Made by a program: the position numbers and the translations under genes
Shown here: positions 8,367 to 40,600 of the stretch, piece by piece
Layout of the letters: each line of letters starts with the position of its first letter
Numbering within the stretch: the stretch's first letter is position 1
Notes under the pieces: generated by a model
What the model saw: only the letters and a program-made list of their open reading frames with translations
What the model was told of the DNA's origin: nothing
Database searches by the model: none
NCBI GenBank assembly: GCA_012862575.1
Contig: BLSF01000010.1
Coordinates: 1 to 64,000 of the forward strand
From: Parietichytrium sp. I65-24A
Lineage: Eukaryota; Sar; Bigyra; Thraustochytrida; Thraustochytriidae
Reading direction: 5' to 3'
DNA: 64,000 nucleotides

Positions 8367-8694
8367 ACTGTTAGGCTTGAACTTGCTCTCATTTACTCTG
8401 ATTCTTTTTGTTTTTTGCGATCGTTTGGACCGACCACATGGGGGAGACTTATCCTTGGTCAATCACGCTTGCATACCTGATCTCGCTCACCATATTCAAG
8501 GTTTTGTCGCTTGCTAGAAAACTACACACATACAAGTCAAAGAAGTATCACCGTTTTTTTTTTAATTGACTTCATTAGCTTTTCTCTCCAAAAGGTTATA
8601 CCAGCGCAAGAGCACATGAGACAAGGGGGAGATGTCTAATGTCTCTGTGACTAGAACCGTGGCTCTATCGGAAAAAGTAGAGGAAATTCGGTAT
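8367..8694. other. Convergent 3' spacer
   Basis: A 328-bp region between the stops of the FKBP and WD40 genes, containing the 3' ends of both. A T10 run lies near 8552. No gene is seen. Confidence 0.6.
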
Positions 8695-9775
8695 TCACAG
8701 CGAAGCGTTCATGGCGGAGGAGGTCTCGTGACCGCCAGGAAGGCCGGCATTGTCCCTCAATACTTTATCTCTCCCAAGCTTGTCTACCAGGCTTTCAGCG
8801 TTTGCCACACTGACTCCCTCGTCAAAGCCCATCACGATGTGTTTGGATTGTGCCATGGACCCAAGAGCCCAGCACCTTCCAAGGTCTGAGGAGTACGTGA
8901 GCTCAGGAGACATCGTGTCCAAGCTCCAAACGCGAACAGAGTTGTCCTCGGCACCGCTGACCAAGAGACCAAGCTCAGTGGCAAACAAAACCGCGCTCAC
9001 GTTGCCTTCGTGGCCTTGCAAGGATCCCAGGCAAGAACCATTATTGACGTCAAAGACCTTTAGAGTGTAGTCGTCGCCCCCCGAAATCAGCACTGGTGAG
9101 TCATTCTTGCAGCAAGCGAAGGTGACGCAGTTGACACATGAAGTGTGTCCCTCGAAGGTCATAACTGGCTCAAGGTGATCCAACGACCACATTTTGCAGG
9201 TGGTATCCAGAGATGCGCTCACGAGAAGCTTTTCGTTCGTTGGGTGCCACTCCACGTCCATCACGTAGTGACCATGACCCGCGAAAATCTTCTCCAGTTT
9301 CCAACCCTCTTCCCAATTCCAGACCTTGGCAACTTTGTCGTCCCCGCAAGAAACCAGCAATGGCGCGTTGGGGTGAACTTTTACGCAACGAATATAATCT
9401 TTGTGGGCCTCAAACTCGTGCAGCGTACTGAATGTGTCCAGATCGATGATGCGCTGATCCCAATTTTATACACCAGAGCCGGTGGGGTTAGCTTTTCTCT
9501 CCTTGCAATACTTTTTCATGCAAATTGCTCTTTGAACTTACAATTTTTCCGTCATCACCTCCGCAGACGATCCAACCCTTGCAAATGACGAACTTGGCCG
9601 CACGAACAGGAGCTTCCGAGATCTTCGCTTGACGGACAACAGTCTTTGTTTCGTAGTCCCAGAGATACACATCGCCGCTATGCAGAGCGCAGAGTACCCA
9701 TGGCAAGTCCGGATGAAAGTCACAGCTCTTCACTCGTGGGGATGCGTGGGAGACGACGTTGTGAAAAGATGCCAT
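8695..9775 (-). CDS. Beta'-COP-like WD40 propeller protein (two exons)
   Basis: Exon 1 runs 9775-9542 from ATG (MASFHNVVSHASPRVKSCDF) to DDGKI; an 88-nt intron 9541-9454 has GTAAGT...CAG; exon 2 runs 9453-8695 and resumes in phase 0 with RIIDLDTF, giving 330 residues. The sequence follows the N-terminal seven-bladed propeller of beta'-COP (COPB2) closely: RVKSCDFHP, PVRAAKFV, FEAHKDYIRCVKVHP, DDKVAKVWNWEE, FAGHGHYVMDVEWHP, FEGHTSCVNC, LISGGDDYTLKVFD, LQGHEGNVSAV, EDNSVRVW, MGFDEG. In COPI this propeller binds di-lysine cargo tails. The homology stops just after the GFDEG region and the protein ends, without the second propeller and alpha-solenoid of a ~900-residue beta'-COP. It is therefore probably a stand-alone paralogue, unless a further exon was missed. 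Confidence 0.88.
9454..9541 (-). other. Intron of WD40 gene (88 nt, GTAAGT...CAG)
   Basis: The donor is GTAAGT directly after the isoleucine codon of DDGKI and the acceptor is GGGATCAG. Removing it restores the unbroken beta'-COP-like alignment ...DDGKI-RIIDLDTF. It contains in-frame stops if retained. Confidence 0.85.
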
Positions 9776-11637
9776 CTTTATTCTTTCTTTTTGTCTTCTT
9801 GCCTCTAATTTGTTCAATTTTTCGAATTCCAGTCCAGTTTGGGTTTTGCACAACGCATGGGCGCCATTTTCTTCGCGCAGGAATGTGGACCGTCGCAATT
9901 CAAGACCACGTGGACCGCCCTGCAACCCACACGATGTTGTCAACTAGACGCAGCTCATGGCTCGCCTAACGATATTTTGAGCAACGTGCTGTCCCAGGCT
10001 CCCAGATCTCCCAGATCACGGCTAACGTGGACGTTGATTTCGAAGTTGTCACTATTCGAACCAGTAGGTATCTCTGACCACGTCAGTCAGTGTCACCAAC
10101 TTACTGTGAATTACACCAAAACCTAATGCGCTGGTTCGCAGTTCTGACAGTGAATTCTGAATAGAGGCAGTGTGCACTTTCTCCTTTTCATTTTTTAGTT
10201 ATATGAAATCCTGGCGCGAAGACGTCTTCAGAAGATCATGGCAAGCGGCTCGTTTGGACGCGTGGCGTGATGAGTCGGCACGTATGGTGTTCAGCTCTTG
10301 GATTCCGGCAGCAAGACACGCTCGACGGTGTTTCGACACCTGCTATTTCAGAATCCAGCTAAATCCTTAAGAAGCTGGTTTGAGTGTCCTCGCGAGACAG
10401 CATCGCTAAATGCAAGGAAAGTGTTCTTCGAGAACTGAGTCACCCGCTTTGGCCTGTCACACTTGAGGAGTGTCAATAGGACGGCTCCTGAATTCGAGTG
10501 CGGTTGCAATGGTCTCTGGCAGAAGACTTTCAATGCGTCCAGCTTTGCACAGCAGCGAAATACCCAAAGATGAACTTCCAATTGCTCCACTGAGTATGTT
10601 GTGTATGTTGGCGTGACCGCAAGCTCAGTCGAACGCGAGGCGGTATTCTGACTTTCGACTTGTGAACATCTGTTCAACTAACGAATGGGTTTCGTTTCAG
10701 TTCTTCTCGTTTCATCACCAGGTTGTTGGCATGAAAAGAACTTGGACGAAGTTAAGGGCCTCACCTTTCTCACGAGCGTCCCTCTTGAATAGACTGTGAA
10801 TCATCATCACCTGTTATATAAAAGAAATAAAGAAATGAAAAGAGAAAGTGGAGAATGAAGTCTCTCCTTCTCCTGTTTGAAAAACTCATCGATTCGAACG
10901 CTCCACTGGATGCACTCGCAAGCATTTTTTATCGAGTTTAATATGTCATATTATGTTGAAAGTGAGCTAACTTTGCAAAACTGCCATTTTTTAACAGAGA
11001 AAGCGCTAAAACTTTCCCATTCTCAAAAACAAACAGTTCAATTCGACAGTGAAAACCATTTGAATTTTTGAATTTCAAGAAATTTTTTGAATTTTGAATT
11101 TTTACACGAACCCCTTATATAGCTGAGTAGCATATTGCTAGCGATCCCCATTAACCTAGCGAGTCCAACGCACAAAACGACTATGCGTTTCTCTAACTGA
11201 GCCGTAGCGCACGAGTACAGGAGCAGCACTCTCTGCGCACGTGCGCGGCGCCGTTACAGAAAACAGTACAGTCCTCGAGTATGACACTTTGGTGAAGAAA
11301 GGAACTTCCTCTTGTTCCCTTTGACGACGAGCAATTTGAAGTTTGAAGTTTGAAGTTTGACAGGAGGTTTGTGAGAGGCACAGAAACACACAGAAACAGA
11401 GAATCAGAGAGAGAGGGAGGGTATACTCGCAGCGGACGCGGAGTACCCGCGGATTTTCTCGGTAATAAAGGCTTAGTACGCGGGGACACAGGACTAAAGG
11501 TCGCATAACAGTGAGTCTCTTGCGACTTTGCGGAACGGAAGTAAGATAGCGGACGCTTTCAAAGATCGGAACATCGGAACTATCGGAATAGACTTTGTCG
11601 CAATTTTTGAAAAGTGCGTGTTTGTTAAAGTTGAAAG
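9776..11637. other. Divergent intergenic region between WD40 and SAMHD1-like genes
   Basis: No supported gene. It holds GAATTCTGAATAG near 10152, TTATATAAAAG near 10814, AT-rich AATTTTTGAATTTC-like repeats at 11050-11100, a tandem TTTGAAG run at 11335-11360 and a purine tract (CAGAAACACACAGAAACAGAGAATCAGAGAGAGAGGGAGG) at 11373-11421. The last lies ~220 bp before the SAMHD1-like ATG and is in coding orientation. Confidence 0.5.
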
Positions 11638-13629
11638 ATGGACGAGAAGAAGCGGCCGCTCGAAGAGAGCGGTGCATCGGACTCTGATTGCGAAGAGATG
11701 CGCGAGGTGAACATGGCACATTCTTTGAGAATGGCAAATGCCGGCTTCGGATCAAGCGGAGGCACTGCTGCAAGCGGTCATTTCCATCGACATGGCAAAG
11801 TTGTGACGGATGCCGTGCATGAATCCATGGAGCTGCCGGCTTTGCTGCTCACTGTGGTGGACACCGCGCAATTTCAAAGGCTAAAGGGGCTGAGACAACT
11901 GGGCGCCACGCATTATGTGTACCCGTGTGCCACGCACTCAAGGTTTGAACACTCGCTGGGCGTGGCGTACTTGGGCATTACTCTGGCGCGGAGCCTGAAA
12001 GTGCGGCAGCCGGAGCTGGGCATCTCGGAGACAGATGTGCTTTGTGTGGGTCTCGCGGGGCTGTGCCATGATCTTGGGCATGGACCGTTTTCTCACCTGT
12101 TTGACGGGGAGTTTATGCGCGACAAAAAGTGGGCGCATGAACTGGGGTCGGTGCAAATGTTGAGGCATTTGCTGAAAGAGAACAACATTGACCTGTGCAC
12201 GGTGTATGGGCTGTCGCGCAAGGACATGGTGTTTGTGGAGGAGCTGATCTTGGGAAGCAAAATTGAAGGCGGGCTGAAAATGCGCTGCGGGCGGGACGCT
12301 TCGAAGGCGTTCCTGTACGACATTATCAACAACGAGCGCAGCGGGTTGGACGTGGACAAGCTGGATTATATTATGCGGGATGCCCATTTTACTGGTGTCA
12401 GGTACGTTGTAGTGGAATGATTCTCAGAAGGAAGTTTGCCGTGCGTCTGACGAGCTTTTTACTTGATATACACATCAGTGTCACAACGATGAACGTCAAA
12501 CGGATTATCCAAATGGCAAGGGTCTTGCCTGATGAGAACAATGAGTTGACAATCTGCTTTCCAGAAAAGGCCGTGCACAACTTGTTTGGGGTCTTTCAAG
12601 CCAGGGTTTGGCTCCATAGTGTAGGTTTCGCTTTCGTGAAAGTGCGTTGTTCGTGGTGCGCGACTGACGTTTCCAATTGAACTGCCCTCGCAGATTGTAT
12701 ATCAGCACAAGGTGGTGAAAGCTTGCGAGTATATGATTCGCGACATCATGACTGCTTCGGACCCTCACCTAAAGTTCCGCAGTAAGGTGAATGGGAAGCT
12801 GTTGAGCATGTCTGAGGCAATAAAAGACATGTCTGTATTTGCTCAGCTGAAGGACTCGATCTTGGATCTCATTGAGCTCAGCGAGAAGCCTGAACTCAAA
12901 GAGGCCCAGGAGCTACTGGAGAGGCTGAGACGCAGGGATCTTTACCGCTGCTGCGGGATGGTCGAGCACCCCACCCCAATTCCAAAAGCCAAGCAAGGCG
13001 TCATGGAGGAACAGGTCGCCAAAGCCATAGTGGACATCAGCGCAGAGGATGGATACGATCTCAAGAAAAGCGATTTTATCGTAGAGGTGATGCTCGTTCA
13101 TCACGGAAAAGGATGCAGTAACCCAGTGGACGGGCTTCGCTTCTATTCCAAAAGTGCAGCGCTTTCGTTGGATCAGCCTCTTCGTACAGAATTCCCAACC
13201 GGAATTGCCTTGATGGAGTCACCGCCGAACTCGCAGTCTTCGTTCAGCTCGTGCATGACTGCGGGAGGCAGCGCAAGGTGTTTTAAAATCAAACAGGAGA
13301 AATACATTGGCGCCATTGTGCCGCAGAGGATGGGCTACAATGGTGTCCGTGTATTTGCCAAGACTGTGGCAAAACGAGACATCGTCGCACAAAGTTTCCG
13401 AACTTGGACACGCCGTTGCTTGCTTGCTTCGCCCCTTTGCCACAACTCGCAGACCTCGCCAGAAGACGTTGAAGGGGAGGAGGAAGGCGCGACTGACGAG
13501 ACATTGGATGTTTCTCCGATTTTTGACCGCCGAGTGAAGGCTCGCACAGGTGTGAACCAAGTTGACGTGACACGACCAAAGTCCGCCTTGGAGCAGATGC
13601 TAGACGATGACGATGATGAAATGCTTTGA
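11638..13629 (+). CDS. SAMHD1: SAMHD1-like HD-domain dNTP triphosphohydrolase (three exons)
   Basis: Exons are 11638-12401, 12479-12620 and 12694-13629; introns are 77 nt (GTACGT...CATCAG) and 73 nt (GTAGGT...CGCAG). The join gives 613 residues, close to animal SAMHD1 (~626). The HD metal and catalytic set is intact: RFEHSLG (His104), LCHDLGHGPFSH (His144, Asp145, His148, His153), WAHE (His167) and GLDVDKLDYIMRD (Asp240). The stretch after the first intron (KRIIQMARVL, NELTIC, HNLFGVFQARVWLHS-IVYQHKV) and the C-terminal lobe (LRRRDLYRCCG, DFIVEVM, NPVDGLRFYSK) also match the family. It should hydrolyse dNTPs to deoxynucleoside and triphosphate, limiting dNTP pools. The ~60-residue N-terminus has no SAM domain. 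The C-terminus adds ~80 residues including an acidic DDDDDE tail. Confidence 0.93.
12402..12478 (+). other. Intron 1 of SAMHD1-like gene (77 nt)
   Basis: Donor CAG|GTACGTTG after ...HFTGV plus two bases, acceptor ACACATCAG. Reading through meets a TGA stop at 12418-12420 within seven codons; splicing restores the SAMHD1-like sequence beginning with the RIIQMARV region. Confidence 0.85.
12621..12693 (+). other. Intron 2 of SAMHD1-like gene (73 nt)
   Basis: Donor AGT|GTAGGT after WLHS, acceptor CCCTCGCAG before IVYQHKV. The phase is 0 and the spliced spacing between LH and YQHKV equals that of animal SAMHD1. Confidence 0.85.
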
Positions 13630-13904
13630 CGGGCTTGGACTTAGAGTTAGTGTTTATTGATTGATGCATCAATTAAATGCCTCCTGAAGCTTTCTTTCTT
13701 TTATTCACTTGCAGATGCAGTTCATACGATCGATTCTGCAGCCAACCAAGACTGACAAGACTTCCCACGTTCGATTGTTGTTTTGAGTTTCTTTGGAAGC
13801 AAATTCTGGCAAAGAAGGCGTTTCTTTCTATAGACAAGTTCTTTTACACCTAAAATTTAAAAAAAAAAGTTCCATCATGAGCAGCAACCGCGCGGTACGG
13901 CAAT

Positions 13905-16900
13905 CTAATTGGTTTTCTTCGTTTCCTCGGCAGCTGCCACGGCCAGAATCTCCCTTCGATGAATCAAATAAGTGCATCCTAGGAGCACCATGCTGCACAA
14001 CACGACATAGAATACAACGAGAAAGGTGGTCCAGGTATCCATCGGCATGCCATACGGCTCCACAGCAAAGTATGTTTGCAATGTACAAAAACTGTAGTCT
14101 GGGTCTACAACCGACACGAAGAACTGAAACGGCACGTCCAGACTCTCCTTTGAAAATGCAATGTAGTTCGAGGACGATTTGTTCAGCACCTCGTAAGACA
14201 GGGTGGAGAGATCCGAGACGGTCGAATTATCAGCCAAATAGCAAGTTTGGTGATTCTTCGCCGTCCACGCAGTAGAGATGTTGCCGTCTTCGGCGAGGCG
14301 AGCTGACCAAGAGGTCGGATCCCTCAAGCACGCAGCACCTTCGGCAGTAAGCCCGTACGATACTTCCACTCTCCCGTGCACCTCGATGACAGTGAAGTCG
14401 GCTTCAACCTCTTTTACAAACGTGTTCGAATCCCAGATCTCCAGCCTTGGCTTGAAGGATTCTGTATAAGGCACATATGTAGGGCATCCATAACGTTCAA
14501 AGTCAAACTTGTAAGTGACTGACTCCTCGTTCTCATCGCCAAGATTTGTGAGGTAATTGGAGACGCCGATAGAATTGTAGTAAATGTTTGCAAGGCTGGC
14601 GGTGATGCTGCTCTTGTCAATCGTGAGCTCCGTGTCGTGGTAATTCTGGCACGTGCAATTGGAAATCACATACTGCCGCTCAAGGCCAGTCAAATCCCCA
14701 GCCAACTCATCGCATTCACTGGATACGACTGCTGTCGAGGGGAACTCGTAACCTTCTGGTGGCAGGTATCGGAGATGTCTGCCTCGCGGGCAACCAACGC
14801 TTACCTGGATAAGCTTTTGATGCTCGCTGCAATCTGAGTTGAACATGGTTGGTACGGAGCGAATTATCACTTTCCCGGACGCTTTATCCTGCAGACCGAT
14901 TCCAGTGGCAGAACTAATTTTTTCAGGCACGGTAATATTGACAAACCTCGTTCGAGTAATGATTGAGCCATCCTCGTTCATTGCGATCTCCTCGGAACCA
15001 GGCACCATCTCCACCAAGCTCCGATTTGACGACTGAAAGGACACAAAAATCCCACTGTTCTTCGCCGAATGCGTCAACGCCATCGAGGATTCCAAATAGT
15101 CATTCATGTCCAGATAAAAGCAATCATCGTCGGGCGAGAGCTTTGTCCAATCCAGATAGGGGCAAGCCGGCCTTATCCTTTCGTAATCACTGGAAGTCGT
15201 TGACAGATCTTTCAAGTCGGCGACCACCGTGTCTTCATCAAACCCGTCCGTGGTGAGGTTCATGTAACCGGTCGAGTTCACGAGGACCTGGTCGAGCACC
15301 TCAAAAAGCTGCACAGTAGTGGAACCCTCCGATAGCTGCGACGCAACCAATGTGCCGTCTGGGCGAAAGAGGATGAAGATGGCATCTCCTTCGTTCACCC
15401 GAAGTGGAGAGTACACCTCGTAGGCTTCGATGAGACCCAGCTTGCCCTTAAAAATCCGGCCCGTGGAGGTGAGAATCGCTACGTCTCCGCTCCATGACGT
15501 CGATACCTCCAGAATAACATCACCAGTGCTTAGCTCTACCGGCAGATAGGAGCGAGAACTGAGAGAGTAATGTTGCAATTGTACATCCTTCCAGGTGCGG
15601 CCGACGCTTGGGGAGTAGAGGACGGTCTGTTGGTCGAACAGAAACAGCTCACCCGTAGGTACCACTGGGCTGATAATCTTCAAGGAGCTGCTCCCAATCG
15701 ATGTAAAAGCGGTGCCTTCTCCGAAGTTAGCAACAGCATGTGCGTATCCCGAATTCTCTTGAACAAGGTACAACGAGACTGTACCCGTTGAAGTGTCCTC
15801 GGCTAGCACAATGATTTCCGGGAGGCTGACAAGTGGCACCACGGTGTGAATTTTGTGTTCTGCAGAGCTGGAAAATTGAAATTCCTGGAACGTTTCGCCA
15901 GAATCGCTGGTGATATAAAAGGAGCTCTGGTCTGAGCGATCACCGCGCCAAGCAACGATCACGTCATTTCGGGTTTGATTGTAAAAGTCAGGCAAAAAGT
16001 CGCAGGAGCTAGCGCTGTTCAAGTTGGTGACTCCACTTGGAGCAGGCCCCACCAGGGTAGCGGCTACAGCGGCCTCCATGTCGCGGCTGAGCAAGGACGA
16101 GTAAGTGTAAATGTTTTCATCGCTCGCAAGAAGGAATAGTCCCCGCCTTAAATGAACAACGTCTACGATGGTTAACGATCCAGACCCAATCTCGTAAAAC
16201 GGCTGAAAAATCTCGAGATCCTCTAGCTGAGTGACACTCTTTTTCACGGACGCTCCTATAATATCCTGCGTTCCGTACAAGAACCTCTTGTCGTCCGGCG
16301 ACGGAAACACCAAGCTGGACGAGCAGATATCAATCGCGATCTTTGACGAATCGACCGCACTTGACAGCGACGTTGGGGCATCCGATGATGATATAGGCTC
16401 CATTGCATATTTCGTGAGGTCCAGCCACATTTGTCCGGCCTTAGCGCTGCATCCCATCATGTTGACAGATTGTCCTTCTACAACAATCCCGACCGGGCCA
16501 CCTGCAAAGTAAGCGATAGAATTATTCTGAAATCGGGATGCCAGGGGGATATACCAGAAAGACTCATCCTGGTTAAATCGTGCACTTCCGCTATTCCCAA
16601 TGTATGCCAGCGCTTCTGTGTCTAACGTAAACTTGCGCTTGTGCATCTTCAAATTGGGCCGTTCCCCAAGCGCGTACGCTTCGGCAGTCAGCAATTGTTC
16701 AGCCTCAGTGATCTCCTCCATGCTCGACACAGACCAGGCCGTGGTGGTTATTTCCGACAGCCAGAGCCGAAGGTACAGCTCCGACTCGCTGCTAGTGTAG
16801 TTGCTCCATAGAGACAGGCACGACGCTGCGTCGCTCAAGTCGTGGGTGAAGCAGCTGTTCCACTGGTAGCAGAACGAAGACTTTCTCGCTACTTTGATCG

Positions 16901-17219
16901 CTAACAACGGATCCCAGTCGGTGCTCTCATCGTCCAGTGGCGCCCAGATGAACGCGCTTCCGCCTTCTAAAAACTTTATCTGCGCTGAGCTCCCATTGCT
17001 TTCCACCAGAGTGGCTCGCACTCCGAGAGTCCGCCATTCCGTCACCGTTGGGCCAGAATCCGCCAGACACGGCAGACAGGTGAGCTCCAGCACATCGCCA
17101 GCGTGAATTTCGTGGGCCAATCTGCTGCGATTCCGTATCCTGAGCTGTGGTTGCCCTGCATTACACCCCGCAAATAGAAACACCGCAAGTGCCACAAGTG
17201 CCACCGCGCGCCAGCCCAT
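13905..17219 (-). CDS. CatSper auxiliary subunit (beta/delta/epsilon family)-like, single-pass membrane protein
   Basis: The product is 1104 residues, ATG start, with signal peptide 1-21 (AVALVALAVFLFAGC), a long ectodomain and one membrane helix (about 1063-1086) before a short basic tail. The ectodomain includes propeller-like strands with Asp-box-like motifs (TSDSGETFQEF, YSPSVGRTWKDV). The last ~190 residues carry the stem signature of CatSper delta/epsilon/beta subunits: YGCPTYVPY, SFKPRLEIWD, FVKEVEADF, EVHGR, SYGLTAEGAACLRDPTSW, then VSVVDPDYSFCTLQTYFAVEPYG before the helix. In sperm these subunits form a canopy over the CatSper Ca2+ channel in the flagellar membrane. By inference the organism has a motile flagellated stage and a CatSper-type channel. 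Subunit type is uncertain. It is intronless despite its size. Confidence 0.82.
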   Translation of the reverse strand: MGWRAVALVALAVFLFAGCNAGQPQLRIRNRSRLAHEIHAGDVLELTCLPCLADSGPTVTEWRTLGVRATLVESNGSSAQIKFLEGGSAFIWAPLDDESTDWDPLLAIKVARKSSFCYQWNSCFTHDLSDAASCLSLWSNYTSSESELYLRLWLSEITTTAWSVSSMEEITEAEQLLTAEAYALGERPNLKMHKRKFTLDTEALAYIGNSGSARFNQDESFWYIPLASRFQNNSIAYFAGGPVGIVVEGQSVNMMGCSAKAGQMWLDLTKYAMEPISSSDAPTSLSSAVDSSKIAIDICSSSLVFPSPDDKRFLYGTQDIIGASVKKSVTQLEDLEIFQPFYEIGSGSLTIVDVVHLRRGLFLLASDENIYTYSSLLSRDMEAAVAATLVGPAPSGVTNLNSASSCDFLPDFYNQTRNDVIVAWRGDRSDQSSFYITSDSGETFQEFQFSSSAEHKIHTVVPLVSLPEIIVLAEDTSTGTVSLYLVQENSGYAHAVANFGEGTAFTSIGSSSLKIISPVVPTGELFLFDQQTVLYSPSVGRTWKDVQLQHYSLSSRSYLPVELSTGDVILEVSTSWSGDVAILTSTGRIFKGKLGLIEAYEVYSPLRVNEGDAIFILFRPDGTLVASQLSEGSTTVQLFEVLDQVLVNSTGYMNLTTDGFDEDTVVADLKDLSTTSSDYERIRPACPYLDWTKLSPDDDCFYLDMNDYLESSMALTHSAKNSGIFVSFQSSNRSLVEMVPGSEEIAMNEDGSIITRTRFVNITVPEKISSATGIGLQDKASGKVIIRSVPTMFNSDCSEHQKLIQVSVGCPRGRHLRYLPPEGYEFPSTAVVSSECDELAGDLTGLERQYVISNCTCQNYHDTELTIDKSSITASLANIYYNSIGVSNYLTNLGDENEESVTYKFDFERYGCPTYVPYTESFKPRLEIWDSNTFVKEVEADFTVIEVHGRVEVSYGLTAEGAACLRDPTSWSARLAEDGNISTAWTAKNHQTCYLADNSTVSDLSTLSYEVLNKSSSNYIAFSKESLDVPFQFFVSVVDPDYSFCTLQTYFAVEPYGMPMDTWTTFLVVFYVVLCSMVLLGCTYLIHRREILAVAAAEETKKTN

Positions 17220-18030
17220 GTCGCCTGCGACCGAGTGTGAAATATCTCAATCTCAATCTCAATCCCAATCTCAATGTGAACAAAATAAGTCCCCGCGACC
17301 CTGAATCGCCTCTCTCGTGATATGTATTATGTTCCTCCTCCTGCTGCGATTGGGCGGCAATGATGACGAATGAATGAATGAATGAAATGAATGACTGACT
17401 GACTGACTAATTGCTTGCCGACCCAGACGAAGAAACACCGCAACTTCTCCGTGTATATATATTTGTGTATGTATATTCAATCACCGCTTCAAGAGATTTG
17501 CACATGTACTCGCGCCTATGCCAACCGCATAAGGCACTGTACTCCCGTACGATAACACGCTCCTGCCGCCGGTACTCGCTGCACCCACTCACTGTGCGCC
17601 CAACTCAGTGGGGAAGCCGACCGCTAGGAGTCTCATACTCGCCGGATAGCATTAGCACCCAGACTTTTTAACTTACATTTTTTTACCTGTGGGGAAGACC
17701 CAGCCGTTAAGCGAACAAGGGAGCGCTTCTCTGACCACGAACAAAGAGCTGTTCGTTCATTGTTCCGGTACTCTTGTTTAGGCAAAACTCTATGAGACGT
17801 TTGCTACATTTGCTACGAGCTAGGGAAGGGGCGTCGGTAAGGAAGACATAGCGGATCCGGTAATGAAAATTTGAAAAAAGACCTGCACAAAGCCGGTCCT
17901 GCGGTTCTTTGAGCGCGTCCCCCCAACCACCCACACCAACTCATACACACACACACATACACACAAACCACCACTGCGAGTGTCCTCGCTGCTCTTGAAA
18001 GGCGGGAGGCGCGGCCGTGAGCCTTGGGGG
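17220..18030. other. Divergent promoter region between CatSper-like and coiled-coil genes
   Basis: Contains (ATCTCA)n at 17244-17274 just upstream of the CatSper-like ATG, AATG and GACT tetranucleotide tracts at 17370-17408, and a CA-repeat (ACACACACACATACACAC) near 17945-17965. No ORF is supported. Confidence 0.5.
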
Positions 18031-19011
18031 ATGGAGCACGAGATCCGGCTGGGCGGCGCGTGGGCCGCGTTCGCGTCGCGCACGTCCGCGCTGGAGGCCG
18101 AGTGCGCGGATCTGCGGAACGCATTGGCCCGCCTGCGCGAGGAACGCGCCGCCGAGCAAGAGGCGCTGCGCGCGGCGTTCTCGGAACTTTCCGCGGAACG
18201 TTCCCGGGCCGAGCGCGCCGTGTTTCAGCGCGGCGCTTTCGCCGCGGCACTGTACGCCAGCGCGACGGCGCGGGAGCGCGCGGAACGTTCCGCGGAACTC
18301 GCCCGGAGTGTGCGCGCGGCGGCGGAGGAGCGGGCGCAGCGCGCGGCCTTGCGCGCCAGCCAGGCGGAACGTTCCGCGGAACTGGCCGAGGACCGCGCCC
18401 GCAGAGCGGAACGTTCCGCGGAACTTTCCGCTGCTGAGGCGCGCCGCGCGCTCGCCCAGCACGACGACGCCGAGAAACGCGCCGAACAGATGGCCGCCGC
18501 CGCCGCCGCCTGCCGCGCAGCCGTCCGATCCGGAACCCAAAGCGGAACCCAATCCCGCGCGCGACCACCCGCCCGGGTTCCTCAGATTCCGCACAGGCAC
18601 GCGGGTTCTAAAGGCAGCGGATCTGAGGCAACGCGCGCGAAGAGAGGCAGGCTTCCGGGACTTCCTGGCGCGGCGGATGCAGAGGCGGGTTCCGAAGGCG
18701 GCGACTCTGAGGCGGAGAACCAGGAGAACCAGGAGAATGGGGAGAATTGCGGGAACCGGGGCGGCGACGGCGCAGTCCAATGCGCGAAAGAGAGGATCAG
18801 AAAGTCGCGGAAAGACGTGGCGATGGAGAGGCTGGCGCGCGAAGAGAGGGGCAAGCTGGCGGCGTTTACTGCGCCAGGGAGACTGAAGGAGAAGCTGAGC
18901 AAAGAGGCGGCAAGAAGGGCGCTTGCGGAGGCTGAGGTGGTGAGATTGCAGGCGGAAAATGACGCGCTGAAAGTGAGGTATAGGAATCTGCGAGAGATGG
19001 GCAGGGGGTGA
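18031..19011 (+). CDS. GC-rich coiled-coil protein of unknown function
   Basis: From the ATG at 18031 the product is 326 residues; the upstream frame begins only at GTG. Residues ~1-170 form a long Ala/Glu/Arg-rich coiled coil with several copies of AERSAEL. Residues ~170-260 are a low-complexity, probably disordered linker (NQENQENGEN). The last ~65 residues are again helical, with a basic stretch (KERIRKSRK) and a zipper-like end (AEVVRLQAENDALKVRYRNL). No catalytic domain. The DNA is far richer in G+C than its neighbours, leaving open antisense frames of 251 and 446 codons that I take as shadows. The heptad-like pattern and unbroken 5'-3' frame support this strand. Possible scaffold or cytoskeletal protein; function unknown. 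Confidence 0.6.
   Translation: MEHEIRLGGAWAAFASRTSALEAECADLRNALARLREERAAEQEALRAAFSELSAERSRAERAVFQRGAFAAALYASATARERAERSAELARSVRAAAEERAQRAALRASQAERSAELAEDRARRAERSAELSAAEARRALAQHDDAEKRAEQMAAAAAACRAAVRSGTQSGTQSRARPPARVPQIPHRHAGSKGSGSEATRAKRGRLPGLPGAADAEAGSEGGDSEAENQENQENGENCGNRGGDGAVQCAKERIRKSRKDVAMERLAREERGKLAAFTAPGRLKEKLSKEAARRALAEAEVVRLQAENDALKVRYRNLREMGRG
18185..18430 (+). repeat. Interspersed GC-rich palindromes CGGAACGTTCCG / TTCCGCGGAA inside the coiled-coil gene
   Basis: CGGAACGTTCCG occurs at 18281-18292, 18365-18376 and 18407-18418, each followed directly by the overlapping palindrome TTCCGCGGAA; a variant lies at 18189-18206. They encode the AERSAEL protein repeat and are identical at the DNA level beyond what the amino acids require. 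Confidence 0.8.
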
Positions 19012-19661
19012 TGTCGATGATGATGATGATGATGGATGAATGAATGAATGAATGCTCTTCAAATGCAATTGCAATTGCAATGGCTCTCTCTCTTCGGCGT
19101 TCTTGACTGTGTTGGCTTTAATGACGAGTTGGATGAGAACGCGGCAGTGGGAGCGTCGGGGTCTCATTAATTGTTGTTGTTGTTGTTGTTGTTGTTGACC
19201 ATGCTGGTGGAAGGGATTTAAATCTCTTAGTGGGGTTTCGCTCGGCTCTTCTTCCTTTTTCCTGGCAGATTGTTGGTCCATCTGTCAATCGTGTTGAATT
19301 CTGTTCTGAATTCTGAATTAATTCTGAAATGAAGATGCACGTAGGCTACCTTGTGCTACTACTTTCTGTATAGGATGCAGCAGCTGTCAGTGATACGCAC
19401 TGTGAAAGCACCACAGCTGACTACTGTTTGCTATTTGGGCGGTACAGTGCTTGCTAGCACTGGCAGCGAGTGCTATTAGAAAAGTTGCGAGCCAGAAGAG
19501 ACGAAAGAGAGAGGATTTGTGTTAGTGGGGTGTCAGAAGTGTCAGACGAGGCAAAACTTTTGGCAGCTGTGAAAGCACAGCAGTTCCCAAACAGAGCACG
19601 AGGCAAGAGCAACAAATTCAACTTTATACGTCGGTCGCTGACTACAAAGCAAGTGGACGGT
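19012..19661. other. Spacer between coiled-coil and TPR genes
   Basis: Contains GAT and AATG tracts (19015-19055), (TTG)n at 19171-19198 and a GAATTCTGTTCTGAATTCTGAATTAATTCTG block near 19295-19328. The reading frame of the TPR gene is open from 19458, so part of this may be coding if an upstream exon exists. Confidence 0.45.
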
Positions 19662-21356
19662 ATGAGAGAAACGGAAGATTACGCGCTCAGAGTGGCAGAG
19701 TCGCACGGGCCTTCTTTCGAGTTTGGTACGAGCTCGAAATCCTGTCATGTTTGGACGCAACGCGGCCTGCAACATCTTTTTGCGTACAATCATGAGGAGG
19801 CGATATGGTGCTGCCAGCGCGCATTGGAATCTGATCCTGAGGCATCGCTCCCGATGCTGCTGATATCGTATTCGAATGGGGTCAACTACAACAACGGCGC
19901 GTGCGAAGAAAAGTCAGGAGCGTTTCCGTCGAACGCGGACGCAGTAAAGTACGCCGCGCTTGGACATGCCGCTGCGAATAAAGATGGTAGCCGCGCAACA
20001 ACTGTGGAAAAGGGGCTGGCGGCGGCGATCTCTTTGCGATCCAGCTCGCCGGGACCGGAGTCGCTCGAGGACACAGAGGAGCAGGAGGCCGCACGTGCAC
20101 GTCTCAACAGCGCTTTCGCTCGGCATATGCAGGTCGTATTTGAGGAGCATGCGGACAACGCAGATGTTGCTTTTTTCTACGTGGAGGCGATGCTAAACTT
20201 GCATCCGTGGAAGCTTTTCGACAAGGATGGCTCCCCCCGCACCGAGTCTGAAGCTTTTGTTGGAACGCTGCAGCTCATTTCGCAGTTGCAAAACTGCTTG
20301 AAGAGGCATCCTAATCACATTGGTCTCCTTCATCTGTACATTCACGCGATGGAGATGTCCCCTGACTGTGCAATCGCCAAGCGTGAGGCGCTCCATTTAG
20401 GCGAACTTGTCAAAAATAGCTCCCTGGGCCACCTTAAGCACATGCCTTCGCACATTCTGGTTCAAATTGGGGCTTATGATGAATCCGTCGTATGCAATAT
20501 AGACGCCGTCAGCGTGGACAGAGAGTTTCTGGCCATCCGCGGTCTAGCGAATTTTTATACCATGTACAGATGCCATGACGCACACATGCTCGCTTTCTCT
20601 GCGATGATGGCCGGACAGCGCGATCTCGCCTTGCAATACGCCATCGAGTTAAGAGAAAACCTCATGTCCGACGATGGCCTAGCGTTTATGAGCGAAGGTG
20701 GGATGAGTGACTTTTTGGAAAGCTTTACGCCTATTGAGCTCCACGTTTTGGTGCGTTTTGGAGAGTGGGATTCGATCCTGGATATTAAACCAGTTTCGCC
20801 AGGTTCGCTGTATTTGGCATATAACGGGACCCTCCACTTTGCACGAGGGTTGGCGCATGCCGCCTTAGGCCGACCTGATCTCGCAAGGCTTGAGTTGTCC
20901 GAGTTTTCAAACATTTTTGAGCAGGTCCCTGAGTCGCGGACTTTGTTCAACAATAAAGTGAGGGACATTCTTCAAGTCGCGGACCAAGTTCTAAGAGGCG
21001 AAATTTTGTACCGGGAACAGCGATTTGAGGAGGCGTTCCATCACCTGCGTAGAGCAGTTGAGCTGGATGACAACTTGCCTTACGACGAGCCTTGGGGTTG
21101 GCTCATGCCAGCACGCCATCCGCTCGGTGCACTTCTGTTGGAACACGGATCTCTCGGCGAAGCCATTGACGTCTTTCATGAGGACCTAAGGCGATACCCT
21201 CGAAATATCTGGTCGCTTCGAGGCCTGGCACTGTGTTCTGAACAGGGTAAAGAAGTGCTGGAAGACGATATCCAAGCCGACTTGGACACAGCGCAGCGTA
21301 TAGCCACCGTCAAAGTGCACGCACCTTGCTTTTGCGCTCGCTCGTTCGTGAAATAG
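19662..21356 (+). CDS. TPR-repeat protein with GLLHLYIHAME / HMPSHI signature
   Basis: The first in-frame ATG (19662) gives 564 residues; the frame is open back to 19458 but only with GTG, so an upstream exon is possible. The protein is helical throughout with TPR-type repeats (residues ~28-60, HVWTQRGLQHLFAYNHEEAI, and several towards the C-terminus such as LRRAVELDDNLPYDE and LGEAIDVFHEDLRRYPRN). It has two motifs recurring in a family of bacterial and protist TPR proteins: HPNHIGLLHLYIHAME (216-231) and GHLKHMPSHI (ending ~265), whose conserved histidines may bind metal. No signal peptide or membrane segment is visible. The biochemical role of the family is unknown to me. It faces the GH3 gene with only 60 bp between stops. 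Confidence 0.85.
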   Translation: MRETEDYALRVAESHGPSFEFGTSSKSCHVWTQRGLQHLFAYNHEEAIWCCQRALESDPEASLPMLLISYSNGVNYNNGACEEKSGAFPSNADAVKYAALGHAAANKDGSRATTVEKGLAAAISLRSSSPGPESLEDTEEQEAARARLNSAFARHMQVVFEEHADNADVAFFYVEAMLNLHPWKLFDKDGSPRTESEAFVGTLQLISQLQNCLKRHPNHIGLLHLYIHAMEMSPDCAIAKREALHLGELVKNSSLGHLKHMPSHILVQIGAYDESVVCNIDAVSVDREFLAIRGLANFYTMYRCHDAHMLAFSAMMAGQRDLALQYAIELRENLMSDDGLAFMSEGGMSDFLESFTPIELHVLVRFGEWDSILDIKPVSPGSLYLAYNGTLHFARGLAHAALGRPDLARLELSEFSNIFEQVPESRTLFNNKVRDILQVADQVLRGEILYREQRFEEAFHHLRRAVELDDNLPYDEPWGWLMPARHPLGALLLEHGSLGEAIDVFHEDLRRYPRNIWSLRGLALCSEQGKEVLEDDIQADLDTAQRIATVKVHAPCFCARSFVK

Positions 21357-21416
21357 ATGTGCCAGATTTTGGATAAATCACAATTTAACTATTTTTTCTC
21401 TGTTCTTATTTTACTA

Positions 21417-23618
21417 TTAGAAGGAGATTGGATAACTCAAATGAATTTCATCGACTGAAGATCCAATCAAAAGGCGGTACTTGCACGACTGGTCTGGATA
21501 CACCCACTTGTTCTTGGCCGCGCTCCACTCTGCAATAGCATCAAATTCAAAACTTAATCTTACTGTGGCCGCACCGCCTGCCTGAAGCCACTTCTTGCTG
21601 AAGTCAATCAGTTTCTTTGGTGGTCGCAGCGAAGATGTACGGCTTTGGCATTGGGATCTTTCGAGATACAACTGTGCAACCACCGAGTCATCGCGCTCGC
21701 CAGTGTTCTCCACTTCGATCTCAACGTACCAACGATTGGGCTCTTGCAAATGCAGAGGTGTCTCAGGTAACGATTTCCACTTGAAGGTGGTGTACGTGAG
21801 TCCGAAACCAAAGGAGAACATGGGCTTGACACCGTTGTGATTGTACCAGCGGTAGCCCGTCAAAAGTCCCTCAGAGTAGTTTACCTTCAGGTTTACTCCT
21901 GGATATTGATCTGGTGTAAAGTGCATCATTGTCTTCTCGAACGGAATGGTGAATGGTAAACGGCCCTGTGGTGGTATGATTCCAAGGAGGTTATCCGCTA
22001 GCGCGTTGCCGAGTTGCTCCCCTGGCATGAACATTAATTGCACCGCTTCAACGCTGTCGATCCAAGGTAACAGAACTGGGCCAGGACAAATGCCAATAAC
22101 AATAATGGGTGCTGACGAGTCAGCTCGTTGCCGAGCATGAGTGACATTCGAGACAAGATCCTCCTGGTCAAAGTAAAGTGACTGACGGTCGTCCCCCTCT
22201 GCAGACGTCGTCGCCAGGACGATGACTATAGCAGACGCTCCTTGTACCGTGCTTTCGATGGAGGAGGCATCTTTACCATCATTATATACTACCGCTTGCG
22301 CACCGAATGCATCAGTGATACCTTCGAGCGCAGTGACGCCGCGGCCACTGTCATTCACAGTTCCCGAGCCGCCGCCGACAAAGTAGTTCTTCGAGTTGGC
22401 TGCGACCCCAAACACAGCAATGCCGCTCTTTCCGGTCTGGAGAGGCAAGACGGCACCATCATTCTTGAGCAACACGGAGCCCGTCGCAGCCACTCGGCGC
22501 GCCAGAGTCCTATGACTCTCGGTTGAGGCGTCTTTGGCTATTTGGCAGTCCGCGCTTTGAGAGAGGGTGACGTTGGCCTTCTTCATCGAGTTGAGGACGC
22601 GCTTGGCGGAGGCCGCCACCGCCAAGCGCACGGTTTTATCATTTCGAGCAAGTGTCTCCAACTTGGAGCCAAAGTAGTTATCATTCGGCATCTCCTGATC
22701 CAAACCGGCTAGCACTGCATCCCTGGTGGAGTGCGTCGCAAACCAGTCGCTCATAACGAAGCCTTCAAAGCCCCACTCCTCCTTCAGCTTAGTCTTGAGC
22801 AGCGCCTCGTTCTCGCACGCGTATTTACCCCCTACCTTGTTGTATGAGCACATGAACGAAAGCACTCCGGCGTCCACGGCAGCTTTGAACGGCGGGAGGT
22901 ACAGCTCGTTGAGCGCCACCGCGTCCACGGTCACGTCCACCGCGTTTCTGTCCTTCTCCTGGTTGTTGAGCGCAAAGTGCTTGGCGCACGCCATCATCCC
23001 CGGCTTCACTTGCAAGCCTCGCACCACCGCCCGTGTCAGCTTTGCGCCGAGTACCGGGTCTTCTCCGCTCAGATACTCAAACGTTCTGCCATTGGAAGGC
23101 ACTCTGAGCACGTTCAGACCCGGGCCTAGCACCACATTCGCCCCCTTGTCCGCGAACTCTTCCGCAATTGCCATCGCCCAAGCGCCGCCAAGTCCCGCGT
23201 CGAATGTCGCCGCAACGCTTAGCGCGCAGGGGAAGGCAGTGGAAGCATCTTTTGGGCCCCGAAAACCCTGCGGCCCATCGTTCATGCGGATCTCGCCCGA
23301 TTGCAGAGAGGCCACCGCGGGAACGAAGCCAGTGTACCCACATGAGGATTTGCTGCCGTGCATGAGCTGCAAGTTGTCTGATGGAAGGTCATCGTCGCCA
23401 CCGTGCTTGCTTCGGTCCGGGAACAGCCATCGCTTGCCAGCCCACAAAACGCCAAAAACCAGCGCCACTGCGGCCAAGCGAAGGGCCCACGCGCGAGCAT
23501 GCAGAGAGGGGCCGCGAGTGCCGGCTTGCCGACGATGTTCCTGCTCTTGCTCTTGCTCTTGCTGCCGATGATCATTGCTCAAGAGAGCCTCCTCATTTGA
23601 GTCGCTCCGGTCGCCCAT
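21417..23618 (-). CDS. GH3-family beta-glucosidase, type II membrane-anchored
   Basis: The product is 733 residues. After a Gln/Glu-rich cytoplasmic N-terminus (QEQEQEQEHRRQ), residues ~41-61 form a signal anchor (WALRLAAVALVFGVLWAG), so the enzyme should face the lumen or outside. The GH3 TIM-barrel shows NDGPQGFR, GPGLNVLRVP, KHFALNNQE, SYNKVGG and the nucleophile segment EGFVMSDWFATH with Asp291. The second alpha/beta domain follows (SVLLKNDGAVLPL, GSGTVN, MPGEQLGNALADNLLG, GRLPFTIP), then a fibronectin III-like domain (SFGFGLTYTTF ... VENTGERDDSVVAQLYL). The set is that of beta-glucosidase or related exo-glycosidases releasing terminal beta-glucose from oligosaccharides; exact substrate unknown. 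Catalytic residues look intact. Confidence 0.93.
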   Translation of the reverse strand: MGDRSDSNEEALLSNDHRQQEQEQEQEHRRQAGTRGPSLHARAWALRLAAVALVFGVLWAGKRWLFPDRSKHGGDDDLPSDNLQLMHGSKSSCGYTGFVPAVASLQSGEIRMNDGPQGFRGPKDASTAFPCALSVAATFDAGLGGAWAMAIAEEFADKGANVVLGPGLNVLRVPSNGRTFEYLSGEDPVLGAKLTRAVVRGLQVKPGMMACAKHFALNNQEKDRNAVDVTVDAVALNELYLPPFKAAVDAGVLSFMCSYNKVGGKYACENEALLKTKLKEEWGFEGFVMSDWFATHSTRDAVLAGLDQEMPNDNYFGSKLETLARNDKTVRLAVAASAKRVLNSMKKANVTLSQSADCQIAKDASTESHRTLARRVAATGSVLLKNDGAVLPLQTGKSGIAVFGVAANSKNYFVGGGSGTVNDSGRGVTALEGITDAFGAQAVVYNDGKDASSIESTVQGASAIVIVLATTSAEGDDRQSLYFDQEDLVSNVTHARQRADSSAPIIVIGICPGPVLLPWIDSVEAVQLMFMPGEQLGNALADNLLGIIPPQGRLPFTIPFEKTMMHFTPDQYPGVNLKVNYSEGLLTGYRWYNHNGVKPMFSFGFGLTYTTFKWKSLPETPLHLQEPNRWYVEIEVENTGERDDSVVAQLYLERSQCQSRTSSLRPPKKLIDFSKKWLQAGGAATVRLSFEFDAIAEWSAAKNKWVYPDQSCKYRLLIGSSVDEIHLSYPISF

Positions 23619-34769: not shown

Positions 34770-37636
34770 TGCTGCTACAACATTTTGGGAGTCGGTATAT
34801 TAGTGTTCTTGTGCTGCAACGTGGACCGCCGCTTCGCTGGAAATGAACCGGTGCCACTTTATCATTTCACAGCCCAAAATAATTGATTTAATTGAGCTTT
34901 AGGTTCCTTCCTTCTCTTGTTCTGGCGGTTTTGATGAAAAATTGATGCTCGTGTGGTCTATAATCAGCACGTTTGCATGGGCGCGCAGTCAGTTGTGCAT
35001 TTGTCAGTGTTCCTCGGAGTCCTAGTTCTTCTTACTCACATGTCAAAAAGTGTCCCTTACTTTTTCCTCTCCAACATTCACGCTTTCGTTCAGAGTACAA
35101 TCGCCGTTCATATGCCGGTAATTTTGACTTCTATCAGAATATAATTAAATGGTAATACAGTAGTCAGCGTTGTAGAAGAACTAACTCAGAGCAAAGTTTG
35201 ACCTTTGCACCCGTCCCAGTCGTACCTTTGTCGCGTTGATTGATGTTGATTGTATCGTTTGAGACCCTTGATCACTCACGCGCCGCATCTTGTGGCTCTG
35301 GCTCCTGTAGCAAAGTGAAAACTTGGTTGCCAACAGTGTCAATCAATTCGAAATCCTTTTAACCGTGTCAATCTTTGTACTCGCACAGATGAGCAAGGAC
35401 GTGCTGGCAGTGCACGAATGTGCACGCTGAAGGCAAGCAATGTTTTGATAATGTTTTTGAAGTTTTCGAGCTTTTCGAGCCTCGAGAGACTCCAAGGTCG
35501 AATGAAAAATTGCAACTTGGAGTCTCAACTCGACAGCAAAAAATTCTTCGGCAAGGTACTGAGTACTTATACATCGCCCTACCATTGACTTTTGGCCCGT
35601 CCGCGCTAGGCCAGAAGTGTGCACTATGGATCTTCGGAGGAAACGTTACTCCGGTACGAGTGGCGTCATGATTGTGATACTCCTTCGTAAACATGTAATT
35701 GATGACAGCATCGAGTTGCGGTAGTGGCGATATGTGGCGATGTCCCAGGTGGTCCTATGAGTAAGCAGTGCGATTCGATGGAATATGGATGCAAGTAACA
35801 GGGATTAAAACTCTTCGGGGGGATTGCGTCATGCCCCGATGCGTAATACGGTGACGAAAATCATAAAGGTAAGCAGTCATGAATAATATTGCTGACGACA
35901 GCTGCTGTGGTCATCACCGAGGCTTGGGATAGGTTTGGCCCCGAAATGTGCACCTCTCCATTCCGTGGAATCTGGCACGGTTGATGTTGTTGACCCTCCT
36001 GTCAATGAACCTTCCTGGCGAAGATTTTAACACGAGCAGGACTAGGAAGGGAGCCAAGACGAGTGTTCACTGACTGTGAATGAATGAATGAGTTAGCAGC
36101 ACCACGTGTGTGCTCGACTCGGAAGAGCTTTGGGCTTAGCAATCTTGCTTATCAATTGCCGAAGCGCCAGTAAGCTTGGCAGTCGTTGTTCTGGCTGTCA
36201 GTCCTGCCATTGCAAAGGCCATTGAGCTGCCACCGTTCCACCACAACCTCCGCAAGTGTGCAGCAAGCTTTTACAGTACTAGTACCGGTATCGTTAGACA
36301 AAGATCAAATTTTGGACTTTCAGTCGTGCACAGAGCGCAGGTCAGTCCAGTCAGTGTTGCGACTCCAGAGACTCCAGAGACTCCAGAGGGTGGAAGAAGA
36401 AAAAAACAAACGAAGCTGGGCTGCTGAGCTGCAACTTCTTGGTTGACAGACTGAACAGTTTAACAGTTTAGACTTTTGAAGAACACGTTGACACCGGACC
36501 AAATCCAGACAAAGCCACATCCAACTCAAAAATGGCGCAGCGTACTTTCACTTTTCCATACATTCCATCGCGTCCGTATACAATGTCTATTAGGTAAGTA
36601 ACCCCTTCTACCAGATTCCGGTTTCCCCTCTGTCCCCTCTGTCCCCTCTGCAACCTGCAGTAGTACTTCGTTTAAAGAATCCTCTCTCGCAGAATCAGTT
36701 CTTTTGAGCTCTTCCTCCGCATAAACAGTAAACGTTATTTCCCAATTCTCAATTTTCAATCTCAGAAAAAGAAACAAACAATCAAAAAAATGGAAAAGAA
36801 TCTTCCTTCTAAGTACTGAGTACTTAATTCTAAAAAAGAACCTACAAACCTTCAAAATTCCTCCCTCAAACACTTCGAGGCTCTACTACTACCTCCCTCT
36901 CCTAAGAGCCTTACTCCTCACCCCGCACACTCTACTCACCCTTACCCGCCAGCCAGCACGCGCTTAGGCTAGCACTCTCTATCACTCACTTAGACTTTCC
37001 ATTCAGTTCGCGCTAGTCCCGAAAGGTTCCGACAGCGTGACAGTAACAACAGTAACTATCCAAACTAGCAAACTAGCACTCCACCGCCATACATACTCCC
37101 CCGCTATCCAGTCGCCTAATCTCCGCCCATACCGAGGGCCTACCACTAGCGAGGAGGGTGTGCGCTGGCGGAACTTCACTAATGCAAACGCCTAGCGAGC
37201 GCTAGTGAGTGGAGACTTTCGCAGACGCTGGTCAACAACTTGTGAGTACTGACTGTGAGGACTGACTGTGAGTACTCAGTACAGACAGCGAAAGAGAGAG
37301 AGAGAGAGAACAGAGAGACACAGAGATAGAGAGATAGACAGACAGAAACAGAGACAGAGAGAGAGAGATAGAGAGAGAGAGAGGAGGTACTCGCGGTCGG
37401 TACTTAGAGGGAAGAGGGTAGAGACGTAAAACCGCAGCGGTTCAACAGGTTGTTGTGTTGTTGGTGTCACAGTCAGCAGCGGAGCATACGGAGAGTGGGT
37501 CCTCAGTGGTTGGCCTTTGGTTGCGCAGCGCATTGGGAACGGGCCGTGGGCAGAGGCGCCCGGATTGGCATTTGGCATTTGGCGTTTGGCGTTTGGTTGA
37601 TTGGGGCTGCCGGAGGGCTGGCTGTTGATCGCGAGG
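34770..37636. other. Intergenic region upstream of PqiA-like gene
   Basis: 2.9 kb without a supported gene. Contains exact GTACTGAGTAC at 35556 and 36813 and GTACTCAGTAC at 37272; CCAGAGACT triplicate near 36365; TCCCCTCTG triplicate near 36625; a C-rich, G-poor block at ~36876-37170 with CTAGCACT/TAGGCTAGC words; and a 100-bp purine tract at 37288-37387. The last blocks are in coding orientation for the PqiA-like gene. Confidence 0.5.
37288..37387 (+). repeat. Purine GA/CAGA tract upstream of PqiA-like gene
   Basis: (GA)n with CAGA and TAGA interruptions over ~100 bp, ending 250 bp before the ATG at 37637. Confidence 0.85.
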
Positions 37637-40600
37637 ATGGCGCGACTAAAGATTGCAGCGCGCCTGCTGATGGTGTGCATGGCACTTGTGGCAATTGTGA
37701 GCGGGTGGAACGCAGAGGTTGACCTAGCATTGCAGAACAAGTTTGGGCCAGAGCTGCGCGAATTGGCCATGGAACTTGCACAGACGCCGGGGGAGAGCAG
37801 AAGCCTGGTGGAGTTTGGAGACTATACCCAGCTCAACACATTGCTTGGCAGCTTGGATCTGAACCTGGATACAGGGAGCCTAGCCGAGGGCGAAATAGAG
37901 GTTCTCAATGCCAAGCTAATCTACGGTTACTCGGTCAGCCTCTTTTTCCGATTTGGGAATCAAGCCAGCTGCAAAGGACTCAGCATCGGAGGCATCAGCG
38001 CGGTAGGCGGATTTTTGGGGACGAAGGAGTTCTTCCCTCCGGATTGGGACGAAGATGACATGGACAATTTGTACGGGACGTTCAAGCAGAGGTTCGCCCT
38101 GAACTTGACTGTCCACAAGCTGACTCTCCATTGCGACTTGCCAATGGATGCTCGCAACAGCGTAAACTCCGACAGGGATGATCCCAGGCCCGATTCGATT
38201 GAGGGGAACCTTGGTATCGTTGTAAACGACCTTGATGTACACGTCACGAGTATCGTGTACAGTGGAACGAACTTCACTTGGATGCCTCCAGAGATTGTGG
38301 AAAATGCAAACGAGGAGTTTGACATAAAGTGTAAAGAGCAAGTCGTCTTTAATGAATTGAACTTCACCGTCCTAGGCTTGCAAGGAGTCACGGTTATCGG
38401 TTACGAGGTCTACGACCTGGACCCAGATGTGGAGGAGTCCCTCAATCTGGAGAAAAAGCCAACTGCGCAAGATCCAATCGAGGAGATTTTATGTGACCTG
38501 TTGGTAAATGCTTCAACAAGCATTGGGGAGCTTTTGGTGGACAACGAGTATGCTAACCAAACAAGTACCAAGTACGCGCGTCTTCCGAAGGGAACCGACC
38601 GAATTTCTCAAGTCGACGCGATGGGCCGGGAAAACTCATTCGACCCGCCCGCTAACGTTGACCTTGCCAATGTCGGGGATAATTGGCTAGTTGACGCTCT
38701 CGGAGCCTTCCCCGGCGAGAGCAGATGGATCTCCGGTGATGACCCTAAAGAGAGCATCTTCACCGACTTGTACAGTTGGGTGGTCGACCGGCCGCTGGAT
38801 AATCCCGATGCAGATCCGATCCTCGCTGTCATTGACGAGTACCTCAACACGTCTCTGTACGACAATAACGGATTTGCTTACAATCTAGACGTTTTCGAAA
38901 TCGCCTCTAATCTTTTGGGCAGCGAGACCATCGACTCGGCAGTTGGTGTGATCTACGAACAAGACTTTTCCTTCGTGAAAGACTCCGCCGGAAATAATGT
39001 CACGGCAATTTCACTCAAAGTCACAGTCCCAAAGCTTTACATGGACATCACCCCACGTAGTGATGCTGCCCAATTTGAGCGGAACTGGCTGGATCGTATC
39101 TACCTTTGGGGCAACCAGACGCTGCAGGTGCCGACCGTTGAAGGTTTCGACCTGACTTGGCGAACGACTTTCACCTTTGACCTTACTTTTCATGGCGGCG
39201 AAACACTTTTGGAGCCAGACGCTGACGACAGCGATGCATTGACCTCTATTTTGAAGCAGATCGGCGTCTACGAGGTGCACGAGACGATCACGCTTGATGC
39301 GGTGTGGAATGACTTCTTTTTTGAGACTGCTGCAATCGTTGCCGTGGATGTGAACGCTGTGAAAGATCTTCGCATCGGCCCTTTGTTGGATGAGATATAC
39401 GACTGCTTATTCTCCACCTTTTACATTACTCCGACCATCACAGCAGCTGTGTTCAATGCACAAGGCTTCTCCGCCAACATTGATGGTGCTGAGGATGGTC
39501 TTAGTGTGGTTCTCGAAGACTTGGTTAATCTCATTTTGCCGTTGTTCCCCGGCCTTGTTCCAGGCCTTGTGGAAGAGTTTGTCAATTCAGACTATGTCAA
39601 CTCGGAAATTTTAGAACCCACCTTTTGCAAAATTCCGGAGGACGAAGGAAGGATCTTTAGTTTTGAAGGCAAAGTGATGGACATGATCCATGATTATTTG
39701 GACGCCGACCTGCTCATGACCTTGATCGACATGCTCTTTCCGAAGGGGACTGGGGACTCGGCAGACTGGAACCAAATCATTGAAGAGCCCTTGGAGATCC
39801 TTAATCTGGAGGACATGCCTTCCAAAGGAGGCCTCAACACTACGATCGAAATTCTCCTGTACAAGGCAGAGCTTAAAGGGTTCAGCCCCGGCAATTACAC
39901 CCTCACAGACACCAGCCTCCTTTACGTAGATCCAGCCAGCTCTTATTACCCGCAATTTCTCCACAACGTGCTCGATGTGGGGATTCCTGCGCAGAAGGTG
40001 CGACTCGGTTTGGAGCTCCAGCTAAACTCCAACCCTGACACCAGCTTCGCAAATCGGCGCCGGCGGCTTGCCTCTGCTGTAGAACAAACCATTGACGGTC
40101 CAAGCAAATGGGATTTGGAAGTGGCGGACCTCATAGCGATGGATTCGGATTACCGGTATCTCCAAAACAATCCGATCCCTCAGCCCACCGCTTCTTCTAG
40201 GAGCCCCACGAACGCACCTACAGCATTTCCTACCAAAAGTCCCGTCACCGAGGCGCCAACTCCTTCCCCCACCACATCACGGCCAACAAAATCACCTAGC
40301 ACCGCCCCAACCGCCTCACCGCCTCCGGGATATCAGAGGAATCACGTCCGTATTGAGATGGACTTTGAAAACCTCTACTTTCTTTTGGACCTGTTCCTCA
40401 AATTCTTTGAGTACGATGTGGTCAACACAAGACTGGAAGACTCTCTGGAGTTTTGGTGCTGGCTCGGAAAGCTACAGCCATATAGTGGCCCGACCGAAGT
40501 GATTCTGGCACTAAAGAACGGTAACCTCACCTTCACCTGCATCCACTGTGCGAATGATATCATAGCTGGCCTCGAAGAGGCCTTTGAAAATCCCATCGCA

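Follow-up and report, generated by a model that had tools for sequence, protein, structure and literature searches.

CatSper complexes are said to have been reported in protists and early-branching lineages by Cai, Wang and Clapham in 2014. CatSper, the calcium channel by which animals steer their sperm tails, is already published for protists, and the gene described here adds one more case. It lies on the minus strand, at positions 13905 to 17219, of a 64,000-nucleotide stretch of the thraustochytrid Parietichytrium sp. I65-24A (assembly GCA_012862575.1, contig BLSF01000010.1, positions 1 to 64,000; hereafter the window), and encodes a CATSPER delta/epsilon-type subunit. It differs from the published complexes in coming from one more genome. 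Screens for the auxiliary subunits have taken in Aurantiochytrium limacinum, Allomyces, Thecamonas and Salpingoeca (Chung et al. 2017, PMC5362262), and the distribution of CatSper in eukaryotes is wide but uneven (PMC6660944). One review dates the complex to the ancestor of Apusozoa, animals and fungi (PMC7935092). The gene bears on the age of the complex, on which published statements disagree. In mouse, the heterotetrameric pore is covered by a canopy built from the ectodomains of the subunits, with the propellers as its roof (PMC9205950).

The product is very probably a type I CATSPER delta/epsilon membrane protein, most likely of the epsilon type, belonging to a CatSper complex. Its membership of the delta/epsilon family is confirmed by sequence comparison. 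The Pfam profile CATSPERD-E_C (PF22850) matched residues 894-1088, which comprise the stem domain and the transmembrane segment (13956..14540, minus strand as for all parts of the gene), with 126 bits and E=1.9e-36. The CATSPERD beta-propeller profile (PF15020) matched residues 395-608 (15396..16037) with 35.2 bits and E=1.1e-8, over positions 94-294 of 329, two thirds of the profile. Both matches lie above the curated Pfam cut-offs (27.4 bits for PF22850, 27 bits for PF15020), so the proposed check against CATSPER profiles came out positive for the delta/epsilon family. In a sequence search of solved structures, the only significant matches were mouse CatSper epsilon (4.3e-28) and CatSper delta (1.8e-23). 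All four cysteines common to mouse delta and epsilon in the aligned stem, at positions where the window protein has cysteines, are kept; with a stem score of 126 bits against a cut-off of 27.4, this argues that the likeness to CatSper does not arise by chance. The initial annotation had attributed the stem to the CatSper beta, delta or epsilon subunits on the strength of six motifs (YGCP, FKPRLEIWD, EVEADF, EVHGR, AACLRDPTSW and DPDYSFC), all of which are in the open reading frame (ORF). Delta and epsilon stand, and beta does not: the CATSPERB_C profile (PF15149) had no match in the protein in the Pfam search. No relatives were found in viral and prokaryotic contig collections.

The gene runs from ATG to stop as one open frame of 1104 amino acids, intronless, with 9 codons between the ATG and the upstream in-frame stop. 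As anticipated from the first reading of the sequence, the hydrophobicity profile contains exactly two hydrophobic segments, one at each end, the pattern of a type I topology. The N-terminal one, MGWRAVALVALAVFLFAGCNA, belongs to a signal-peptide-like N terminus (residues 1-20, 17160..17219), a label given on hydrophobicity and position only. The C-terminal one, a predicted transmembrane helix at about residues 1060-1087 (13959..14042), reaches a 19-residue Kyte-Doolittle mean of up to 2.4. After it come RR and a short tail, presumably cytoplasmic (residues 1088-1104, with the stop codon, 13905..13958). The protein has 13 N-glycosylation sequons and 22 cysteines. Between the N terminus and the propeller, residues 21-394 (16038..17159) matched no Pfam profile at E values up to 10; their position and length would suit the two additional N-terminal domains of CATSPER epsilon. 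A middle region, possibly Ig-like (residues 685-816, 14772..15167), aligned weakly but in order with residues 616-743 of mouse epsilon, at 4.4 bits only, which is suggestive and not significant alone.

Partner genes were found in the rest of the assembly. An Ion_trans profile scan of the 42.5-Mb genome gave 102 matches, and exactly four of the single-domain channels retrieved from these, some weaker matches being left out, carry a Cav-like TxDxW pore. Each of the four has a different CatSper pore subunit as its best single-domain relative: CatSper1 for L025 (contig C56, 126 bits), CatSper2 for L022 (contig C33, a 214-bit total that takes in the C-terminal WPRD...LQ region), CatSper3 for L023 (contig C115, 159 bits) and CatSper4 for L027 (contig C23, 115 bits). 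The suggestion that pore genes CATSPER1-4 be sought in the same genome was therefore borne out. For three of the four candidates, four-domain Cav channels score higher in total by summed repeats; the best single Cav domain listed for the top Cav match gave 63 to 83 bits. When a mouse CatSper2 segment was compared with the retrieved genome frames, L022 came out on top with 197 bits, the next single-domain match having 83, and CatSper2 is thus the reciprocal best match of L022. The scan also brought up a 745-residue open frame on contig C40 (99753-102004; L024 and L033) with two Ion_trans domains, both having the pore motif TLEDWTD, and adjoined by a further short Ion_trans piece. This frame is a Cav-like channel with two repeats, or a broken one with four, and is separate from the genes for the CatSper pore.

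The remaining canopy subunits, which the initial annotation had expected as part of a full complex, are represented by relatives of beta and gamma. CATSPERB is a 1340-residue frame on contig C6 (1.4e-44; 8.3e-25 for mouse beta), and CATSPERG a 1147-residue frame on contig C36 (1.9e-15; 8.5e-19 for mouse gamma in the PDB). The gamma-propeller model PF15064 had no match in the genome, a misleading result, as the gamma C-terminal model found CATSPERG. A search with the beta C-terminus for further CATSPERB copies returned only CATSPERB itself. Near its N terminus, the CATSPERB frame (L034:275-4294) has a PKD-like domain with E=0.00045, just short of the Pfam cut-off. Family membership, topology signature and the presence of six partner genes can all be read from the sequence. 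The subunit would belong to a CatSper complex with seven or more members, namely CatSper1-4, beta, gamma and delta/epsilon, all encoded in one genome. The assembly also contains two NYD-SP28 genes of the axoneme type DRC1/2. NYD-SP28 is a family of the nexin-dynein regulatory complex, and a motile axoneme is therefore indicated.

Whether the subunit is closer to delta or to epsilon was examined on the stem. Its identity is 29.9% to mouse epsilon (PDB 7eeb chain H, 55 of 184 aligned residues) and 27.9% to mouse delta (7eeb chain G, 53 of 190), and the two mouse stems are identical to each other at 49 of 185 residues. With 26 stem residues shared with epsilon alone and 22 with delta alone, the two values are about equal; the protein is therefore placed in the delta/epsilon family, and the two subunits are not separated. 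With epsilon it shares the stem, the four cysteines, the lone C-terminal transmembrane helix and a similar length ahead of the middle region, which begins at residue 685 versus 616 in mouse epsilon; both this distance and the overall length agree with epsilon, but the N-terminal part is not recognisably similar. With delta it shares the stem and the significant propeller match, but judging from aligned positions it is about 280 residues longer ahead of the propeller. Chung et al. (PMC5362262) report that epsilon dates back as far as CatSper1-4, beta and gamma do, with delta appearing later. Epsilon is favoured because of gene length and this published ancestry. Two observations weigh the other way: the propeller matches a profile named for delta (PF15020), and no epsilon-specific Pfam profile matched the protein. 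The choice of epsilon over delta is not settled by these comparisons. The single-sequence AlphaFold2 model of the protein, with a mean predicted local distance difference test score (pLDDT) of 34.2, was unusable for fold comparison. The sensible label is an epsilon-type or undivided delta/epsilon subunit, probably epsilon.

The second half of that label corresponds to a different history: the protein descends from a pre-duplication subunit, is strictly neither delta nor epsilon, and may occupy both of the corresponding positions in the canopy. Scans with both profiles gave a single delta/epsilon-type gene in the genome, with a unique PF22850 stem match, although the assembly has gaps and such searches may overlook weak matches, so that a separate, divergent delta gene may have been missed. 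The single gene, the near-equal stem identities, and a propeller fitting the delta profile combined with a length fitting epsilon count in favour of an undivided subunit; the surveys putting epsilon as ancient and delta as later (PMC5362262) speak against it. We regard this history as plausible, if clearly below an even chance, and without a rooted tree to tell the two apart it differs from the epsilon reading mainly in name. The wider possibility, that a flagellate belonging to neither animals, fungi nor apusozoans has a complete CatSper of seven subunits in which one undivided protein stands for delta and epsilon, comes only a little short of even. If true, it would move the origin of the whole complex back close to the eukaryotic root, in conflict with PMC7935092.

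Two further explanations concern function and identity. A family member might act outside the flagellum, for instance in the plasma membrane at a stage that does not swim, and the main text of the zoospore proteome paper on the thraustochytrid A. limacinum, possibly a different organism, names no ion or calcium channel. Scarce membrane proteins are however easily overlooked in proteomes, axoneme genes are present in the genome, and CatSper has been located in the flagella of mouse and human sperm (PMC9205950), which leaves a non-flagellar role very unlikely. A secreted or membrane beta-propeller protein of unrelated origin, such as a sortilin/Vps10 relative, that resembles CatSper by chance could account for a weak Sortilin-Vps10 match in the propeller, but at E=0.021 this match is under the cut-off, against 1.9e-36 for CATSPERD-E_C. 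Epsilon and delta being the sole significant structures and all partners being in the genome, the sortilin/Vps10 identity was rejected as extremely improbable.

As an epsilon-type subunit modelled on the mouse complex, the protein would contribute its propeller to the extracellular canopy over the heterotetrameric pore, forming one of its pillars, and its stem and transmembrane helix would pack against the pore. Deletion or mutation of transmembrane subunits leads to loss of the whole channel from sperm (PMC9205950), and for this reason the delta/epsilon protein is expected to be necessary for channel assembly in the flagellar membrane. Calcium entry might then alter the waveform of a swimming stage, zoospore or gamete; the flagellar location and the steering role are suggested by analogy. 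CatSper is essential for mammalian fertility and resists expression in standard cell systems (PMC5362262). A protist whose core complex is encoded by compact genes without introns offers a candidate system in which to study a minimal channel and its role before sperm.

The contig carrying the gene is 767 kb long, and the neighbours include genes for FKBP, protein kinase, RCC1 and WD40 proteins. Contamination is unlikely, because the CatSper-type gene sits among such ordinary eukaryotic genes. The genome is compact and poor in introns, which might suit a labyrinthulomycete. The labyrinthulomycete LABY-A primer site and a degenerate 18S site had no match in it, and the first 5 kb of 16 small contigs contained neither rRNA nor tRNA, negatives from which no conclusion about ribosomal DNA follows. 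Elsewhere in the genome, a single open frame of 5583 residues (L036, contig C66, about 8,500-22,500) resembles a giant modular polyketide synthase. Against an omega-3 synthase model it gave four matches in the ketosynthase region and three others, all far under the cut-off, and the omega-3 PfaA model had no true homologue in the genome. Within the window, positions 17813-19284 are GC-rich (0.595), with long frames open on both strands (378 residues on the plus strand, 447 on the minus strand). This segment encodes repeated GTFRGTFR-like words, and its plus-strand frame had no Pfam match. In the frame at 1-2175, a weak XK-related match comes after Ephrin_rec_like cysteine repeats, and the DNA of this frame carries tandem repeats of 90/180 bases at 846-1310. 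Finally, two stretches of a 1599-residue stop-to-stop frame (37601-42400) match PqiA, a family known chiefly as a bacterial membrane protein, with E=6.7e-13.
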